NCBI RefSeq assembly: GCF_002900975.1
Contig: NZ_PJON01000003.1
Coordinates: 1-64,000 of the forward strand
Source of the DNA: Tabrizicola aquatica
Lineage (GTDB): Bacteria; Pseudomonadota; Alphaproteobacteria; Rhodobacterales; Rhodobacteraceae
Direction: 5' to 3'
Length of the DNA stretch: 64,000 nt
Program-made: the position numbers and the translations under genes
The notes under the pieces: model-generated
Databases searched by the model: none
What the model saw: only the letters and a program-made list of their open reading frames with translations
What the model was told of the DNA's origin: nothing
Part shown: piece by piece, positions 1-7,356 of the stretch
How the letters are laid out: each line of letters begins with the position of its first letter
Position numbering within the stretch: the stretch's first letter is position 1

Positions 1-176
1 GCGCCGACGACACCGCCGAAACGGTGCGCGAAAGGCTGACCGCCTATCACGCCCAGACGGCACCGCTGATCGCGTATTACGACGAAAAGGCCGTGCTCCA
101 ACGGATCAACGCGATGGGACACATCGCTGACATCCGAAACGCACTCGCAAATATCGTCGAAAACGTGACGGCGTAA
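1..176 (+). CDS. adk: Adenylate kinase, C-terminal fragment
   Basis: The window opens inside this gene; codons are read from base 3. The 57 visible residues contain DDTAETVRERL, then YHAQTAPLIAYY, the end of the LID region and following helix of bacterial adenylate kinases (ATP + AMP to 2 ADP, cytosolic). The reading frame closes with TAA at 174-176. The 71 bases to the next gene hold only a weak 5-bp hairpin (CCCCA 192-196 with TGGGG 201-205), so a terminator is possible but not convincing. The N-terminal P-loop and AMP-binding region lie outside the window. Family assignment is firm despite the short piece. Confidence 0.85.
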   Translation, partial: ADDTAETVRERLTAYHAQTAPLIAYYDEKAVLQRINAMGHIADIRNALANIVENVTA

Positions 177-247: not shown

Positions 248-505
248 ATGGCGGACAAGACATCGTCCAACGCCTACTGGGCCGCGAACATCCGGGTGAT
301 CACCATTTCGATGATCATCTGGTTCGCGTGTTCCTTCGGCCTTGGCATCCTACTGCGTCCCGCGCTTTCGGGGATCCATATCGGCGGCGCCGATATCGGG
401 TTCTGGTTCGCGCAGAACGGATCCATCTACGTCTTTCTCGTGCTGATCTTTGCCTATGCCGCAAAGATGAACAAGCTCGACAAAGAGCATGGCGTTGAGG
501 AGTAA
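248..505 (+). CDS. DUF4212 small subunit of a sodium/solute symporter
   Basis: This 85-residue membrane protein has two predicted transmembrane segments (about residues 17-37 and 57-74) joined by a short loop. It matches the DUF4212 family, known as the small partner encoded just upstream of VC_2705/ActP-like sodium:solute symporters. GGGAG lies upstream of the ATG at 248, and the stop is five bases before the symporter ATG, so the two are almost certainly co-translated. Inferred role: stabilising or modulating the large transporter subunit in the inner membrane. A longer overlapping frame starting at 214 has no membrane character and is a shadow. Confidence 0.88.
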   Translation: MADKTSSNAYWAANIRVITISMIIWFACSFGLGILLRPALSGIHIGGADIGFWFAQNGSIYVFLVLIFAYAAKMNKLDKEHGVEE

Positions 506-510
506 GGGAA

Positions 511-2457
511 ATGGATCAGTTTACCCTTAACCTCATCGTCATCGGCGCATCCTTCGCGCTGTACTTCGGTATCGCGTTCTGGGCACGCGCCGGATCGACG
601 TCCGAGTTCTATGCCGCCGGCCAGGGCGTCAGCCCCGTCATGAACGGCATGGCGACGGCGGCGGACTGGATGTCTGCCGCATCCTTCATCTCGATGGCGG
701 GTCTGATCGCCTTCGGGGGCTACAACAACTCGGTCTTCCTGATGGGCTGGACCGGCGGTTACGTGCTTCTGGCGCTGCTGCTGGCCCCGTATCTGCGCAA
801 GTTCGGCAAGTTTACCGTGCCGGAATTCGTGGGCGACCGCTTCTACTCCACCTCGGCGCGCATGGTTGCCGTGGTCTGCCTTCTGGTGATCTCGATCACC
901 TATGTCATCGGGCAGATGGTGGGCGTGGGCGTGACCTTCGCGCGCTTCCTGGAAGTCTCGACGACGACCGGTCTGCTGATCGGCTCGGCCGTGGTGTTCG
1001 CCTATGCGGTGTTCGGCGGCATGAAGGGCATCACCTATACCCAGGTGGCCCAGTATGTCGTTCTGATCACGGCCTATACCATCCCGGCGATCTTCATCTC
1101 GCTGAACCTGACCGGCGCGTTCCTGCCGCAGGTCGGGCTGGTCAGCGGCTATGCCCCGTCGGGCAATGACGTGTACTTCCTGGACAAGCTTGACCAGGTG
1201 GTGACCGACCTGGGCTTCACCGCCTATACTGCCGACACGACGAACATGCTGAACATGTTCCTTGTCACGATGTCGCTGATGATCGGGACCGCGGGCCTGC
1301 CGCACGTGATCATCCGCTTCTTCACCGTGCCCAAGGTGTCGGATGCCCGCGTCTCGGCCGGCTGGGCGCTGGTGTTCATCGCGCTGCTGTACACGGTCGC
1401 CCCGGCGGTCGGGTCGATGGCGCGTCTGAACATCACCACCACCTTCTGGCCCGGTGCCATCGACGGTGACACCTTCTCGAAGCCCGCGCTTTCGATTGCT
1501 GAGATCGACAGCAACCCGGAACTGATCTGGATTCGGAACTGGGAAAAGACCGGCCTGCTGGCGTTTACCGACAAGAACGGCGACGGGCTGATCCAGTACT
1601 TCAACGAGCCGAAGGCGGTTACCGACGCCAACAAGAAAGTGGCTGACGCACAGAAAGCCCTGACCGAAGCTGCCGCCGATGCCGACAAGGCGCCGCTGGA
1701 AGCTGCGGTTGCCGAAGCCACCACCGCACGCGACGCGGCGCTGGAAGCGGCGATGCTGGGTGGCCAGTCGCTGGCCGCACAAGGCATCGTGGGCAACGAA
1801 CTGACCACCGTGAACAACGACATCATGGTGCTTGCCAACCCCGAGATCGCCAAGCTTCCGGGCTGGGTGATCGCGCTTGTCGCCGCCGGTGGTCTTGCCG
1901 CCGCGCTGTCGACGGCTGCGGGCCTTCTCTTGGCCATCTCCTCGGCCATCAGCCACGACCTGATTAAGGGTGCCTTGAACCCGAACATCAGCGAAAAGGG
2001 CGAACTGCTGGCGGCCCGGATTTCGATGGCCTTTGCCATCGTGCTGGCGACCTGGCTTGGCCTTGACCCGCCCGGCTTTGCCGCGCAGGTGGTGGCGCTG
2101 GCCTTCGGTCTGGCGGCAGCGACGATCTTCCCGGTGCTGATGATGGGTATCTTCTCGACCCGCGTCACCAAGGAAGGCGCCATTGCCGGTATGATCGTCG
2201 GCCTGATCTCGACGGCGGTCTACATCTTCCTCTACCTGGGCTGGTTCTTCATCCCGGATACGAACATGCTGCCGAACACGCCCGACGCGCACTTCCTGGG
2301 CATTTCGCCCGCGGCCTTCGGCCCGATCGGTGCGGTGCTGAACTTTGTGGTCGCCTATGTCGTCTCTGGCATGACCAAGGCTCCGCCGCAGGACGTGCAG
2401 GACCTGATCCAGTCGATCCGCGTGCCGAAAGGTGCCGGTGCGGCTCAGGCGCACTGA
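511..2457 (+). CDS. Sodium:solute symporter (SSSF, acetate/carboxylate type)
   Basis: A 648-residue polytopic protein of the SSS family (LeuT-like fold), related to ActP and the VC_2705 family that imports acetate and similar short carboxylates with Na+. Membrane segments run from residue 5 to about 620. A soluble insert at about residues 335-425 separates the core helices. It carries DKNGDGLIQYFN (354-365), which resembles an EF-hand calcium loop except that position 12 is Asn, not Glu, followed by an Ala/Glu/Asp-rich stretch likely to be coiled coil (about 370-415). TAAGGGAA precedes the ATG. It forms a unit with DUF4212 upstream and is followed by a strong hairpin before the DUF294 gene. 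The substrate is inferred, not shown. Confidence 0.88.
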   Translation: MDQFTLNLIVIGASFALYFGIAFWARAGSTSEFYAAGQGVSPVMNGMATAADWMSAASFISMAGLIAFGGYNNSVFLMGWTGGYVLLALLLAPYLRKFGKFTVPEFVGDRFYSTSARMVAVVCLLVISITYVIGQMVGVGVTFARFLEVSTTTGLLIGSAVVFAYAVFGGMKGITYTQVAQYVVLITAYTIPAIFISLNLTGAFLPQVGLVSGYAPSGNDVYFLDKLDQVVTDLGFTAYTADTTNMLNMFLVTMSLMIGTAGLPHVIIRFFTVPKVSDARVSAGWALVFIALLYTVAPAVGSMARLNITTTFWPGAIDGDTFSKPALSIAEIDSNPELIWIRNWEKTGLLAFTDKNGDGLIQYFNEPKAVTDANKKVADAQKALTEAAADADKAPLEAAVAEATTARDAALEAAMLGGQSLAAQGIVGNELTTVNNDIMVLANPEIAKLPGWVIALVAAGGLAAALSTAAGLLLAISSAISHDLIKGALNPNISEKGELLAARISMAFAIVLATWLGLDPPGFAAQVVALAFGLAAATIFPVLMMGIFSTRVTKEGAIAGMIVGLISTAVYIFLYLGWFFIPDTNMLPNTPDAHFLGISPAAFGPIGAVLNFVVAYVVSGMTKAPPQDVQDLIQSIRVPKGAGAAQAH

Positions 2458-2494: not shown

Positions 2495-2518
2495 CCTTAC
2501 CCTTTCCAGGACAGCGCG

Positions 2519-4342
2519 ATGGACGAAGACCTTCAAACCATCATCAGCTTCCTTGAGACGGTGCATCCCTATGACAGCCTGTCACAGGACGAGCGGGCAC
2601 GCGTTGCCCGTTCCTTCGGCTACAGGACTTTCCCTGCCGGCCGGACCATCTACGCGGCGGGATCGACCCTTGACGGTCTGTTCCTGATCCACGAAGGCGC
2701 GGTCGAGATCATTGACACGCTGGGGGACATCGTCTCGCTCCTTGGGCCGCGCAACAGCTTTGGCGAGCGCGGCCTGATGCGTGACGGCCTTGCCGCGACC
2801 ACTGCCCGCGCGACGCAGGACACCGTGGTGCTGCTGCTGCCGGTGACAGAGTTCCGCCGACTATTCGACGAAGAAGCCGCCTTCCGCCGCTTCTTCCAGC
2901 GCGGCCGGGTGGCGGAAGCCCGCGTGGCCGAGATCACCACGCAAAAGGTCGGCGACCTGATGACGCGAGGGCCGATCACTGTTCCGCACGACCTGTCCGT
3001 GCGCGAGGCGGCGCGGCTTATGCGCGACCGGCACGTCTCATGCCTTGGGGTCACCGAGGCGGGGCGGTTCGCCGGGCTGGTGACGACGCGGGACCTCACC
3101 AACCGCGTGCTTGCCGAGGGGCTGTCTGCAGACGTGCCGGTGACCCAGATCATGACCCGGGACCCGGTGACCCTTGCCCCGACGGCGCTGGGGTCCGACG
3201 TGCTGCACCAGATGCTGGAGCGGCGCATCGGCCACCTGCCCGTCATCGAGGGCGGGACACTGGTGGGGATCGTCACCCAGACCGATCTGACCCGATATCA
3301 GGCAGTATCCTCGGCCCAGTTCGTGCGCGATGCCGCGATGGCCGAGACCGTCGGACAACTGGCCGCAATCACCGCCCGGATTCCGCGGCTGGTCGCCCAG
3401 CTTGTCGGGGCCCACCACGCGCATGAGGTGGTGACGCGCCTGACCACGGACATCGCCGATACCGTGACGCGGCGCCTGATTGCCCTGGCAGAACGTGATC
3501 TTGGCCCGGCGCCGGTGCCATATCTGTGGCTGGCCTGCGGGTCGCAGGGCCGACAGGAGCAGTCCAGCGTCTCGGACCAGGACAACTGCATGATCCTGGA
3601 CGATGCCGCCACGCCCGACGACATGACCTATTTCGCAGCCCTCGCGCGGTGCGTGTCGGACGGGCTGGATGCCTGCGGCTATGTCTATTGCCCCGGCGAC
3701 ATGATGGCGACCAACCCGCGCTGGTGCCAGCCGCTGTCGGTCTGGCGCGAGTATTTCACCGGCTGGATCAACCGTCCCGATCCGACGGCGCAGATGTTGG
3801 CCTCGGTCATGTTCGATCTGCGGCCGATCGACGGCGACACCTCTCTGTTTCAGACCTTGCAGCAGGAAACGCTGGAGAAAGCCTCACACAACACGATCTT
3901 CGTCGCGCATATGGTGGCGAATTCGCTGAAGCACGCGCCGCCGTTGGGTCTGCTGCGCGGGATCGCCACCATCCGGTCGGGCGAGCACAAGAACCATATC
4001 GACATGAAGCACAACGGTGTGGTTCCGGTGACAGACCTTGGCCGCGTCTATGCGCTGCTGGGGCGGCTTGGTGCCGTGAACACCCGCGCCCGGCTAGAGG
4101 CTGCGGAAGCCGCAGGCGTCATTTCGCCTTCGGGCGCGCGAGATCTGATCGATGCCTATGACCTGATCGCGCGCACCCGCCTTGAACATCAGGCGCGGCA
4201 AATCCGGCAGGGCCAGAAGCCGAACAACTACCTGTCCCTGTCTGACCTGTCGGATTTCGAACGCTCTCACCTGCGCGATGCCTTTGTCGTCGTGCGCACC
4301 ATGCAATCCTCCGTGGGACATTCCCGCGGGGCCATGTCCTGA
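2519..4342 (+). CDS. cNMP-binding / CBS-pair / DUF294 nucleotidyltransferase-like protein
   Basis: A 607-residue cytosolic protein. Residues 18-135 form a cyclic-nucleotide-binding-like cap, 140-262 a pair of CBS domains (MTR repeats at 148 and 212), about 270-410 a DUF294 putative nucleotidyltransferase domain with GSQGRQEQ (341-348) and DQD (353-355), and the remainder the DUF294 C-terminal substrate-binding domain. Proteins with this order, related to the GlnD nucleotidyltransferase fold, are typically encoded beside acetate-type symporters. The ATG at 2519 is used because the cap domain begins there; the longer frame from 2432 would overlap the symporter and the hairpin. Inferred role: nucleotide-responsive control of the transporter or of a partner protein. 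The modified target is unknown. Confidence 0.85.
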   Translation: MDEDLQTIISFLETVHPYDSLSQDERARVARSFGYRTFPAGRTIYAAGSTLDGLFLIHEGAVEIIDTLGDIVSLLGPRNSFGERGLMRDGLAATTARATQDTVVLLLPVTEFRRLFDEEAAFRRFFQRGRVAEARVAEITTQKVGDLMTRGPITVPHDLSVREAARLMRDRHVSCLGVTEAGRFAGLVTTRDLTNRVLAEGLSADVPVTQIMTRDPVTLAPTALGSDVLHQMLERRIGHLPVIEGGTLVGIVTQTDLTRYQAVSSAQFVRDAAMAETVGQLAAITARIPRLVAQLVGAHHAHEVVTRLTTDIADTVTRRLIALAERDLGPAPVPYLWLACGSQGRQEQSSVSDQDNCMILDDAATPDDMTYFAALARCVSDGLDACGYVYCPGDMMATNPRWCQPLSVWREYFTGWINRPDPTAQMLASVMFDLRPIDGDTSLFQTLQQETLEKASHNTIFVAHMVANSLKHAPPLGLLRGIATIRSGEHKNHIDMKHNGVVPVTDLGRVYALLGRLGAVNTRARLEAAEAAGVISPSGARDLIDAYDLIARTRLEHQARQIRQGQKPNNYLSLSDLSDFERSHLRDAFVVVRTMQSSVGHSRGAMS

Positions 4343-4352
4343 GTAAGTACCG

Positions 4353-4874
4353 ATGGCTCTTGAACTGATCGCCGCCATTGTCGCCGCCATCGCCTTTGCT
4401 GGGATGGCGGCCTTGGCGCGCAGGCTGTCCGGCAACCGTTTGCCGAAGTGGATCACGCCGGCCGCTGCGGGCCTGGGCATGATCGCCTTCACGGTCTGGA
4501 GCGAATATGACTGGTTCAGCCGCATCGAGGCCGGCTTACCCGAAGGTGTGGCGATCGTCTGGAGCGATGACACGCCCAGCCCGCTGCGCCCCTGGACCTT
4601 TGTCGTCCCGCTGACCACCGCGTTCACAGCGATGGATACCCGCAAGCTTGCGCCGCACCCGGACAATGCCGCCCTGGTCCTGGCGCCGGTCTATGCCTTT
4701 GTCCGCTGGCAGGGCGTACAGGACGGGTTCATGGTCGTCGATTGCGCCAATCGGCAGTCAGCCTTGCTGACCGAAACCGTCCGCATCGACGCGGCGGGCC
4801 AGTTGACCGGCGCGGACTGGCTGGCCTTCACGGAAAACGATGCGATCGGCGCCGCCGCCTGCACGGGGAGGTGA
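4353..4874 (+). CDS. Small membrane protein of unknown function in the symporter cluster
   Basis: A 173-residue protein that I do not recognise. It has two hydrophobic helices near the N-terminus (about 2-20 and 36-50) followed by a soluble part of about 120 residues with two cysteines, one in VVDCANRQ and one in the C-terminal AAACTGR. The gene begins 10 bases after the DUF294 stop and ends three bases before the response-regulator ATG, so it belongs to the same transcription unit. Topology suggests an anchored domain, most likely periplasmic or cytoplasmic depending on how the two helices insert. Confidence 0.75.
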   Translation: MALELIAAIVAAIAFAGMAALARRLSGNRLPKWITPAAAGLGMIAFTVWSEYDWFSRIEAGLPEGVAIVWSDDTPSPLRPWTFVVPLTTAFTAMDTRKLAPHPDNAALVLAPVYAFVRWQGVQDGFMVVDCANRQSALLTETVRIDAAGQLTGADWLAFTENDAIGAAACTGR

Positions 4875-4877
4875 GGC

Positions 4878-5270
4878 ATGGTAGAGACAGAGCCTGACAA
4901 ACAGCGCGTCCTGGTGATCGAGGACGAGGACAACGTTGCCCTGGCGCTGGAGTTTCTTCTGACCCGCGAAGGGTATGACGTCGACCGCTGGGCCACCGGC
5001 TCGGGCGCGGTCGAGCATATCCGCGCGACCCGTCCGGGTCTGGTCCTGCTTGACGTGATGCTGCCCGACGTCTCGGGCTATGAAATCTGCCAGGAGACGC
5101 GGCTTGATCCGGCCCTCTCTGACGTCAGGATATTGATCATGACGGCACGCGGATCGATCATGGAACGGCGCAAGAGCATGGCCCTTGGGGCTGACGGCTT
5201 CATCTCCAAACCCTTCGACCCAAAGGAGCTGAGGGCAGAGGTCAGGCATCTTCTGACCAGCGGAGCCTGA
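4878..5270 (+). CDS. Single-domain response regulator (CheY-like receiver)
   Basis: A 130-residue stand-alone receiver domain. The acidic pocket (E15, D16), the phospho-acceptor D59 in LLDVMLPD, the conserved T89 and the K111-P pair are all present, so phosphorylation competence is expected. No output domain follows. It sits one base upstream of the gene for the membrane PAS/exonuclease protein. That neighbour carries a kinase-like core lacking the catalytic histidine, so the phosphodonor must come from elsewhere or the receiver works through protein-protein contact. Role inferred only from context. Confidence 0.9.
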   Translation: MVETEPDKQRVLVIEDEDNVALALEFLLTREGYDVDRWATGSGAVEHIRATRPGLVLLDVMLPDVSGYEICQETRLDPALSDVRILIMTARGSIMERRKSMALGADGFISKPFDPKELRAEVRHLLTSGA

Positions 5271-5271
5271 C

Positions 5272-7356
5272 ATGCTGGCGTCGCTAGGCCTTAGAACCCG
5301 GATCTTCCTGCTGTTCGCGGGCTTGGCCGCGGGCATCCTTGGGGCCGTGACGCTGGGGCTGTTTCTGGCCTATTCGCGGCAGGCCGATCCGCGGGTTCTG
5401 AACGCCTTCCTGCAGGCTGGCATCGTTGCTGGCTTCCTCAGCCTGGGGCTGGTTGCCTGGCTTTGGTATCTGTTCGACGTGAATGTCGCCAAGCCGATCG
5501 ACATCCTTGCCGGGACGCTGCGGGCCCGCGCCCATGCCAGTGTCGACGGCGAGGTTGACGCCGCGATGGCCCGTTATCTGGGCGATCTCGCGCCGTCCGC
5601 GCGGGCCGCGGCCGAAAGCCTGACCGAGACGCGCAGCGCGCTGGCCGAATCCGTCGCGCGCGAAACCTCGCGGCTTTCCGCGGAAAAGCAGCGGCTGGAA
5701 ACGCTGCTGTCTGACGTGCCGGTCGGGGTCCTGCTGTGTTCCGGCGCGCACCAGCTGGTGTTCTACAATGGTCAAGCCTCTGATCTGGTCGGCTCTTCGG
5801 CCGAGGGTCCACGGCTGGATCGCCGGCTCTTCGATTATTTGCGCGAAGGCCCGATCCGCATGGCCCATGACCGCCTGATCGCCACCGAGGACCGCGAAGC
5901 CGCCGTCGACCTGCTTTGCGCCACGGCCAGCGGGGACCGGATTCTGTCGGCCCGGATGCGATTGATCGAACCGCTGGGCAGTGAGCGGCAACGTCCGGGG
6001 TATGTGCTGACCTTGCGCGACGTGACCAGCGATCTGACCGCCAAATCTGCCCGCGACGCCTTCATGCTGGAGGTTTTCGAGCGGATCAGCCGCCCGTCGG
6101 CCAATCTCTCGGTGCTGATCGCGGCCTTGCCCGAAGGCGGGGCCGTTCCCGGGCGCATCGACAAGGCCATTCGCGAAGAGGTCGGTGTTCTGGTCGACAC
6201 GATCACCGACCTGACCCGCCGGGGCGACGCGCTGCGCTCTGATGGCTGGCAGATGTCGACGATCCGGGCCTCTGATCTGATCGACAGCATCAGTGCCCGG
6301 ATCGAGGCGGGTGGCATGACCGTCACCTTGGCCCAGGCGGCACCCTTGCAACTGCAATGCGATGCGTTCGGGCTGGTCTCATTGCTGGCCCGGCTTGCCG
6401 ACCAGATGCGCAATGACGGCTTTTCGCAGGCTTTCGGGATCATCGCGCAAGAAGAAAAAGCCGGTGCCTGCCTCCGCCTGGTCTGGCAAGGTCCGCCGCT
6501 GTCCGTGGCAAAGCTGGAGAAATGGCTGCAGGAACCCCTGGACCGCAACATTCCCGACGTGACCGGCCGGTCGGTCCTGCGGGACAACGGGACCGAGATC
6601 TGGCCCGAACGGTGGGAGGCCGGGCAGTCGCTTTGCCTGCCGCTTCATCAAGTCCGGCGCGAGGTGCGCCGTCCCGCACCCGTCAAGCGGGCTGTGGTCT
6701 ATGACTTTGACCTGCTGGACCGCGAACGGAACGAAGCCGTCGCCGAGACCAGCCTGACCGCCCTGGACTATGTCGTTTTCGACACCGAGACGACCGGGCT
6801 CCTGCCGGAACAGGGCGACGAGATTGTCCAGATTGCCGCCATTCGCATCGTCAACGGGCGCATTGTCGAGAACGAGGTCTTTGATACGCTCGTCAATCCC
6901 GGCCGGCCCATTCCCGCCGCATCCACCGAAGTGCATGGCATCACCGAGGCGATGACCGCGGACGCCCCCAGCGTGGCCGAGGCCCTGCGCAGCTTCCACC
7001 GCTTTGCCGAAGGCGCGGTGCTTATCGCGCACAACGCCCCCTTCGACATGCAGTTCCTGCGCCGACGGGAAGAGGAGCTTGGCCTGCGCTTCGACCACCC
7101 CGTGCTGGACACGGTCCTGCTGTCGGCCGTCGTCTTTGGACAGCATGAGGTTCACAGCCTGGATGCGCTGACCCACCGCCTGGGCGTCACGATCCCGGAA
7201 GAGGCCCGTCACACCGCAATCGGCGACGCCAGGGCGACCGCCGCAGTCTTCGTCCGGCTGGTTCGGATTCTGCAAGGCCGGAACCTGTCCACCTTCGGAA
7301 CCGTGGTGAACGAGGTCCGGCGCCATGCCAGATTGCTCAAGGACTTGAACGCCTGA
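5272..7356 (+). CDS. Membrane-anchored PAS / degenerate histidine-kinase / DnaQ-type 3'-5' exonuclease fusion
   Basis: A 694-residue protein. Two transmembrane helices (about 9-34 and 47-68) lead into a HAMP-like and coiled-coil stretch (70-145) and a PAS-like domain (145-255). Residues 258-460 resemble the dimerisation and ATP-binding core of a sensor kinase, but the helix at 262-285 has ISRPSANL where an H-box histidine would be and no clear N, G1 or G2 boxes remain. Residues 498-665 form a DEDDh exonuclease with all five catalytic residues: D504 and E506 (FDTETT), D592, H647 and D652. The family of the last domain is the DNA polymerase III epsilon/DnaQ proofreading type. The product is best described as a membrane sensor whose output is a nuclease. 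The start directly follows the response-regulator stop. Confidence 0.82.
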   Translation: MLASLGLRTRIFLLFAGLAAGILGAVTLGLFLAYSRQADPRVLNAFLQAGIVAGFLSLGLVAWLWYLFDVNVAKPIDILAGTLRARAHASVDGEVDAAMARYLGDLAPSARAAAESLTETRSALAESVARETSRLSAEKQRLETLLSDVPVGVLLCSGAHQLVFYNGQASDLVGSSAEGPRLDRRLFDYLREGPIRMAHDRLIATEDREAAVDLLCATASGDRILSARMRLIEPLGSERQRPGYVLTLRDVTSDLTAKSARDAFMLEVFERISRPSANLSVLIAALPEGGAVPGRIDKAIREEVGVLVDTITDLTRRGDALRSDGWQMSTIRASDLIDSISARIEAGGMTVTLAQAAPLQLQCDAFGLVSLLARLADQMRNDGFSQAFGIIAQEEKAGACLRLVWQGPPLSVAKLEKWLQEPLDRNIPDVTGRSVLRDNGTEIWPERWEAGQSLCLPLHQVRREVRRPAPVKRAVVYDFDLLDRERNEAVAETSLTALDYVVFDTETTGLLPEQGDEIVQIAAIRIVNGRIVENEVFDTLVNPGRPIPAASTEVHGITEAMTADAPSVAEALRSFHRFAEGAVLIAHNAPFDMQFLRRREEELGLRFDHPVLDTVLLSAVVFGQHEVHSLDALTHRLGVTIPEEARHTAIGDARATAAVFVRLVRILQGRNLSTFGTVVNEVRRHARLLKDLNA

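Follow-up and report, generated by a model that had tools for sequence, protein, structure and literature searches.

What might a membrane-anchored sensor with a histidine-kinase-like core gain by ending in a nuclease? The question is raised by a 694-residue protein of the alphaproteobacterium Tabrizicola aquatica, encoded at 5272..7356 of the window, the 64,000-nucleotide stretch analyzed here (contig NZ_PJON01000003.1, positions 1 to 64,000; all window features below lie on the forward strand). A single base (5271) separates its start from the stop codon of a gene for a 130-residue single-domain receiver (4878..5270). An original prediction, drawn from the sequence alone, had described a dead kinase core joined to a live exonuclease next to an orphan receiver, and had suggested that it may answer a membrane or redox cue connected with an upstream symporter. 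The best overall explanation, to which we give a slightly better than even chance, is that the phosphorylated receiver gates the exonuclease through a pseudo-DHp hairpin and that the exonuclease works with a DUF294 nucleotidyltransferase encoded in the same operon. Its basis in sequence and comparison comprises the architecture, a core stripped of kinase residues, sites preserved intact in exonuclease, transferase, and receiver, the operon, the co-occurrence of receiver and hairpin, and the linkage or fusion to DUF294; docking, direction of control, kinase identity, and substrate we infer.

The C-terminal domain (residues 499-669, 6766..7278) carries all five catalytic residues of a DEDDh exonuclease, D504, E506, D592, H647, and D652, and Pfam places RNase_T at residues 501-660 (E 1.1e-39, 137.1 bits against a cut-off of 24), upholding the complete site that had been claimed. 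In a scan of named genomes that yielded 33 loci, similarity extends past the nuclease domain in 31, and the five residues are conserved in 30 of 32 rows (the window plus these 31 relatives), the other two being unscored (L027, truncated by a contig end, and L031, frameshifted). The domain also matches structures of PolC, epsilon, ExoX, DinG, and RNase T. Identity with the replicative epsilon subunit is less likely, because a lone DnaQ-type gene with a 255-residue frame lies elsewhere in the window genome (G000:C5). Fusion by an assembly artifact of the window genome is rejected, the gene being carried by the 31 relatives and by six deep alphaproteobacterial genomes. The frameshifted copy, from Rhodobacter maris (L031 8001-10063), is split between two frames that overlap close to where core and exonuclease meet, which may reflect either a frameshift or an error of sequencing.

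Upstream of the nuclease, Pfam returns a sub-threshold PAS_8 match (E 0.0055, 17.0 bits against a cut-off of 21.8) and, anywhere in the 694-residue protein, no HAMP, HisKA, or HATPase_c match at E ≤ 1. A full-length AlphaFold2 model, for which the window protein was aligned with 29 relatives (L027 and L031 being left out), has a mean predicted local distance difference test score (pLDDT) of 77.2 and a predicted template modeling score (pTM) of 0.37. It orders the chain as two N-terminal helices (residues 7-37 and 40-88) followed by a coil (97-146; together 5290..5709), a PAS-like fold (152-250, 5725..6021), a DHp-like hairpin (252-322, 6025..6237) of helices 252-284 and 294-322, a CA-like domain (330-463, 6259..6660), and the exonuclease. 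The two helices, predicted from sequence to span the membrane, and the coil had been anticipated correctly, as had the PAS domain, which appears both as the sub-threshold match and as a modeled fold; the HAMP domain proposed with them is unsupported, lacking a profile match in Pfam. Foldseek searches with the full model retrieved PAS-containing kinases and DnaQ/PolC/RNase T exonucleases. The core modeled alone (pLDDT 85.8, pTM 0.67) retrieved histidine kinases, headed by complexes of the kinase HK853 with the receiver RR468 (3dge, E 6.6e-10) and including, at rank 13, DivL, a pseudokinase of Caulobacter. By model and structure search, then, the core has the DHp/CA fold of histidine kinases; against two-domain kinase structures the template modeling score is modest (~0.44) and the root mean square deviation high (11-20 Å), the latter attributed here to a different hinge between the domains.

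What this fold has lost emerges from a residue comparison anchored on nine SLC5-type kinases and covering 46 hairpin-bearing and 12 Rhizobiaceae-type cores, 58 in all. The phospho-acceptor His is present in all nine kinases and in none of the cores. Of the hairpin-bearing cores, 32 have Asp at its position, 11 Glu, and 3 another residue, and the Rhizobiaceae-type ones mostly have Leu there. The nucleotide-binding boxes fare similarly: the N-box Asn survives in 1/58 cores, the G1 Asp in 0/58 (Trp in 57/58), and the first G2 Gly in 1/58. The window hairpin reads Glu270-Arg-Ile-Ser273-Arg-Pro275, so that Glu270 stands where the acceptor His would be, Ser273 falls on H+3, and Pro275 on H+5. The CA-like domain lacks all three boxes (N, G1, G2), having no N-box Asn and no DxGxG motif at G1. 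An intact H box or ATP site was sought by structural comparison, and neither was seen; as the original prediction held, this is, judged by its residues, a kinase core that has lost catalysis. An intact kinase masked by divergence is rejected on the same four counts. Other positions have been retained: in the hairpin-bearing cores, Arg at H+3 is kept in 42/46 and Pro at H+5 in 42/46, at least three of the four that lack the Pro (L164, L167, L183) having a receiver.

The receiver belongs to Response_reg (PF00072, E 3.4e-26) and has Glu15/Asp16, Asp59, Thr89, and Lys111, the last three conserved in 25/25 rows, in agreement with the earlier claim of a receiver with an intact phosphorylation site one base from the exonuclease gene. 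Its distribution was followed in 100 Rhodobacteraceae genomes, one per genus, of which 53 have the exonuclease gene at E ≤ 1e-50; all 53 loci were checked on the DNA. Among the rows used throughout the comparisons, some may represent the same species as others. The entire core is absent from 28 loci, leaving a helices-PAS-exonuclease form, the hairpin is shortened or absent with the CA-like part kept in 4, and both parts are present in 21. A receiver lies directly upstream in all 21 hairpin-bearing loci and in none of the 32 others within the 5-6 kb examined, a concordance of 53/53. Mapped on a 61-row tree of the three linked domains, the labels require 5 changes, and strong branch support makes 4 of these unavoidable; this tree left out L164, L167, and the deep loci, and receiver and hairpin were coded as one label because no discordant row remained. 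The hairpin model was made from 17 rows, of which 16 are receiver-bearing, so that its scores favor receiver-bearing loci; the outright deletions are independent of the model. The scores overlap at the edge, a Neorhizobium locus without receiver (L020) reaching 24.9 bits and a locus with one (L183) 24.4 bits. Rhizobiaceae-type loci, an exception outside the 53-locus sample, combine a decayed hairpin with the lack of a receiver.

The best reading of this pattern is that, in the pseudokinase-exonuclease family, the receiver would act through the hairpin, as DivK~P acts on DivL. DivL likewise joins PAS to a kinase fold in which the acceptor His is replaced, as it is in the window core, and is the partner of a single-domain receiver. 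DivK is described as docking on DivL via the canonical interface, and DivL R553, three residues past the acceptor position Tyr550, as needed for binding DivK~P (PMC4211667). Since Tyr550 occupies the His position, the H+3 Arg of the family would correspond to R553, at a position that is Ser273 in the window protein itself; the acceptor position itself is Tyr in DivL and Asp or Glu in the family. DivL acts on a separate kinase, CckA, whereas the window protein has a nuclease fused to it.

Deeper relatives suggest where the core came from. Whole-protein profile matches occur in at least 267 of 289 genomes of the class at E ≤ 1e-20, mostly over the nuclease domain only; besides the window, and among the matches listed, G051, G079, G064, G087, G233, and G131 match over much of the length, and G184 and G007 hold a PAS form without core. 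An SLC5-type kinase gene accompanies the exonuclease gene at all eight deep loci examined, which come from these six genomes and from G184 and G007, and five of the loci are ordered receiver - exonuclease - kinase. Some of the kinase genes are truncated, in L058 by the contig end and in L057, L064, and L065 by the end of the examined stretch, and the HELRTP box is present in six, that is, in all whose stretch reaches it. Pfam finds HisKA and HATPase_c in both of two such kinases submitted and a weak SSF match (E 9e-4) in one. We take these kinases to be CrbS/RpuS-like. A relative lies in the window genome at G000:C1:612216-614849 (42% identical over 884 residues), and one is present in 4/4 family genomes queried. 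A profile-profile comparison of the pseudo-core with the SLC5-type kinase core gives a probability of 97.8 (E 8.5e-13), and in pseudo-core searches of seven genomes the SLC5-type kinase ranks first among genuine kinases in five of six that can be tested and second in the sixth, G064 being left unjudged because the gene is truncated there. Common descent is the simplest, if not a proven, origin for the two cores on these comparisons, and the pseudo-core is probably an old copy of an SLC5-type kinase core. CrbS and RpuS, SLC5/STAC kinases whose cores are the closest to the pseudo-core and whose genes are its neighbors in deep relatives, keep the HELRTP and ATP boxes and carry a symporter in the same chain, unlike the pseudokinase-exonuclease; their context is acetate and pyruvate (PMC9100948). 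The description of the receiver as an orphan therefore holds only in part: its site is intact and it stands one base before the exonuclease gene, but in deeper alphaproteobacteria the receiver-exonuclease pair adjoins an HELRTP-bearing SLC5-type kinase, and such a kinase is encoded elsewhere in the window genome.

The other side of the proposal concerns the neighboring nucleotidyltransferase, a partner unmentioned in the original prediction. The protein, encoded at 2516..4342 (a chosen start codon in a frame that opens at 2432), consists by Pfam of cNMP-binding, CBS-CBS, DUF294, and DUF294_C domains and has an intact GSxGRxE...DxD motif. DUF294 occurs at E below 1e-33 at 55 loci in 52/289 genomes of the class, with an exonuclease at most 10 kb away in 50/55 and at most 3 kb away in 47/55. 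These counts include a check on the DNA of 11 loci without a listed exonuclease, 6 of which had one and 5 none; by a rough, unsimulated estimate, chance would give linkage at 1-2% per locus in a 4-Mb genome that holds two or three such genes. At 10 loci (L087, L089, L093-L099, L075), exonuclease and DUF294 share one open reading frame of 712-753 residues, and six of these run through Pfam all read RNase_T - CBS - CBS - DUF294 - DUF294_C; a pair of equal-length frames (G135, 500 residues) was excluded from the count as a coincidence. At the level of the phylum, 19 of the best 30 DUF294 loci of 200 genomes have an exonuclease within ~1.5 kb, and in 4 of the other 11 (L103, L105, L111, L114) it lies just past the gene for U173, a conserved protein described below. 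Other proteobacterial DUF294 partners seen are lone exonucleases of ~220-300 residues. The transferase motif is intact in 101/102 proteins by a relaxed pattern, chosen after a strict one had returned 65/102. From linkage and fusion it follows that the constant unit is transferase plus exonuclease, and by these genomic comparisons the DUF294 enzyme appears to be the closest functional partner of the exonuclease; membrane helices, PAS, pseudo-core, and receiver appear to be controls particular to certain lineages. Among other exonuclease forms, a many-helix EamA-type transporter is fused to a DEDDh exonuclease in L048 616-2121 (Pfam EamA + RNase_T) and L050 1456-2964 (by sequence similarity), close to a DUF294 gene of opposite orientation; L047 and L049 hold short forms that begin with hydrophobic helices.

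A comparable gene pair has been studied in Pseudomonas putida, where PP_0354/PP_0353, likewise a DUF294-type gene followed by one for a DEDDh exonuclease and likewise tied to acetate and pyruvate, is a target of MxtR/ErdR (PMC9927547), a system equated with CrbS/CrbR. In some pseudomonads the transferase-exonuclease operon adjoins actP, and its control by MxtR/ErdR has been published (PMC9927547, PMC8402216). The window shows the same target-pair pattern, with cNMP/CBS/DUF294 and DEDDh exonuclease genes near an SSF symporter gene. Compared by description, PP_0353 differs in that only RNase_T is reported for it, with no sensor, pseudo-core, or receiver in the sections cited (PMC9927547). On pyruvate, growth of the exonuclease mutant is delayed and that of the DUF294 mutant is not, and on 20 mM acetate neither mutation affects growth (PMC9927547). 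No description of the pseudokinase-exonuclease fusion or of its receiver was found in the open-access literature, subscription papers and preprints falling mostly outside the search; the parts are known, and the nuclease output and wiring are new as far as that literature shows.

The gene product would, according to the favored explanation, be a membrane-anchored, PAS-containing effector whose dead kinase core serves for docking and gating. Either an SLC5-type kinase encoded elsewhere in the window genome or acetyl phosphate, a possible phosphodonor, would phosphorylate the single-domain receiver, which would then dock on the DHp-like hairpin, as phospho-DivK does on DivL, and thereby switch the C-terminal exonuclease. 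The exonuclease would act as functional partner of the cNMP/CBS/DUF294 nucleotidyltransferase, perhaps reversing it, and the two enzymes would tune uptake and activation of acetate or related monocarboxylates.

Candidate substrates of the exonuclease are RNA, DNA, a small nucleotide, and a nucleotide bound to protein. The conservative choice is RNA, and a receiver-gated enzyme might trim or degrade RNA 3' ends (mRNA, tRNA ends, nanoRNA) at the membrane, with DUF294 acting on the same ends or independently. The structural matches of the domain, RNase T among them, fit such an activity, and mRNA decay is what the authors of the P. putida study speculated for PP_0353 (PMC9927547). Pfam, however, finds no RNA-binding domain besides the nuclease itself, and mRNA decay does not need the partner that accompanies it almost everywhere, a GlnD-like transferase whose motif is nearly always intact. 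We regard this alternative as unlikely, though not heavily so.

A special form of the favored explanation makes the two enzymes writer and eraser: DUF294 would nucleotidylate a protein of uptake or activation, the DEDDh enzyme would remove the nucleotide, and the receiver gate would set the balance. The DUF294 domain is GlnD-like, and DUF294_C has been grouped with GlnD/GlnE (PMC3710099); GlnD itself has an HD-type removing domain, whereas Pfam lists none in the window DUF294 protein, the companion of which is the DEDDh exonuclease. Linkage and single-chain fusion of both enzymes favor such a cycle, as does the prediction of nucleotidylation for the DUF294 homologue Pflu5625, whose mutant had no phenotype (PMC5715377). 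A DEDDh oligoribonuclease hydrolyzes the aryl ester p-nitrophenyl thymidine monophosphate (pNP-TMP), chemically like a tyrosyl-nucleoside monophosphate; the compound is described as a dinucleotide mimic, and its hydrolysis therefore proves no protein substrate (PMC6390093). The pyruvate delay, seen in the exonuclease mutant and absent from the DUF294 mutant (PMC9927547), is what a persisting inhibitory mark would produce, and the same asymmetry also fits independent functions. Set beside these points, no modified protein is known, and we consider the cycle distinctly unlikely in this specific form.

Several observations weigh against receiver gating and the kinase ancestry joined to it. In the window protein itself, H+3 is Ser273 and not Arg. 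The sign test on the three-domain tree gives p 0.125, the events being so few, and in an exonuclease-only tree (70 rows) strong branch support makes only 1 change unavoidable, with L064 and L065 coded receiver-negative though a receiver lies ~2 kb away. L057 has a hairpin and no receiver within the 16 kb examined. Another kinase outscores the SLC5-type one in G079, the margin in G087 is small, and the kinase and exonuclease genes are not neighbors in the window genome. The 28/53 Rhodobacteraceae loci without any core or nearby receiver make the gate dispensable to the partner function. These loci, having lost the whole core and kept the exonuclease, also fit a core that is a vestige or dimerization spacer, the receiver serving the SLC5-type kinase only, as phosphate sink or shuttle, and leaving the exonuclease untouched; L064 and L065, which keep receiver and kinase without a core, agree. 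That account is improbable given the concordance of receiver and hairpin throughout the 53 loci and an acceptor position that is acidic in 43/46 cores rather than scattered, next to a docking-region Arg and Pro that most cores retain.

Gating and eraser function can be joined in one reading, in which an SLC5-type transporter-kinase would use a lone receiver to control a pseudokinase that probably derives from a duplicate of the kinase's own core, now decayed and with Asp/Glu at the former phospho-His position. The pseudokinase would in turn gate a DEDDh eraser of nucleotide marks written by DUF294 on the carboxylate uptake or activation machinery. We hold this chain as a whole to be quite doubtful. 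If true, it would constitute a new two-component output and a writer/eraser cycle in which a nuclease-fold eraser replaces the HD domain of GlnD; a writer/eraser cycle would in itself add to GlnD and GlnE another way of making nucleotidylation reversible. The favored explanation would extend two-component signaling to a pseudokinase with nuclease output and offers a testable mechanism for a widespread, mechanistically uncharacterized DUF294 and DEDDh exonuclease pair tied to acetate and pyruvate use in Proteobacteria.

The setting of the gene strengthens the link to carboxylates beyond what could be seen from the window, the contig of which starts inside the adenylate kinase gene of the operon. 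The truncated 3' end of that gene (3..173) and a small DUF4212 membrane subunit (275..502, the extent of the match) were located by tblastn with the L063 adenylate kinase (Pfam ADK) and DUF4212 (PF13937) proteins, and a sodium/solute symporter of the VC_2705 family follows (511..2457; Pfam SSF E 2.8e-50; TIGR03648 E 2e-239, 795.6 bits against a cut-off of 320.75). U173, a 173-residue conserved protein (4353..4874) with zero Pfam or NCBIfam matches, comes after the DUF294 gene, and stands between DUF294 and receiver or exonuclease in every Rhodobacteraceae or Rhizobiaceae locus reaching that far. The 31 relatives show the same gene with the same neighbors as far as contigs extend. In 19 Rhodobacteraceae-type loci, all with receiver (truncated by the contig end in two), the order to the contig ends is Acs - adenylate kinase - DUF4212 - SSF symporter - cNMP/CBS/DUF294 - U173 - receiver - exonuclease, with Acs visible in 10/19 and adenylate kinase in 13/19 (the families of Acs, adenylate kinase, and DUF4212 being assigned by Pfam on representatives). 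Acs produces AMP from ATP, which makes an adenylate kinase in the operon sensible. By gene order, the exonuclease gene is the last of this putative acetate operon. The suggested carboxylate connection is reinforced by the Acs and adenylate kinase genes at the operon head in relatives; nothing found points to a redox cue, and of the original interpretation the dead core, the intact exonuclease site, and the carboxylate link stand.

Downstream of a coreless exonuclease form, a phosphate acetyltransferase gene (Pfam PTA_PTB) lies a short distance away on the reverse strand (L062 3293-4273). The 12 Rhizobiaceae-type loci (L018-L026, L030, L032, L033) are ordered DUF4212 - SSF - DUF294 - U173 - exonuclease, and the flanks examined match neither Acs nor adenylate kinase; a receiver adjoins the gene in 0/12. 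In the three-domain tree, the five of these copies that were sampled nest within the Rhodobacteraceae copies with full support in the Shimodaira-Hasegawa-like approximate likelihood ratio test (SH-aLRT), a placement suggesting that they were acquired horizontally and then lost the receiver.

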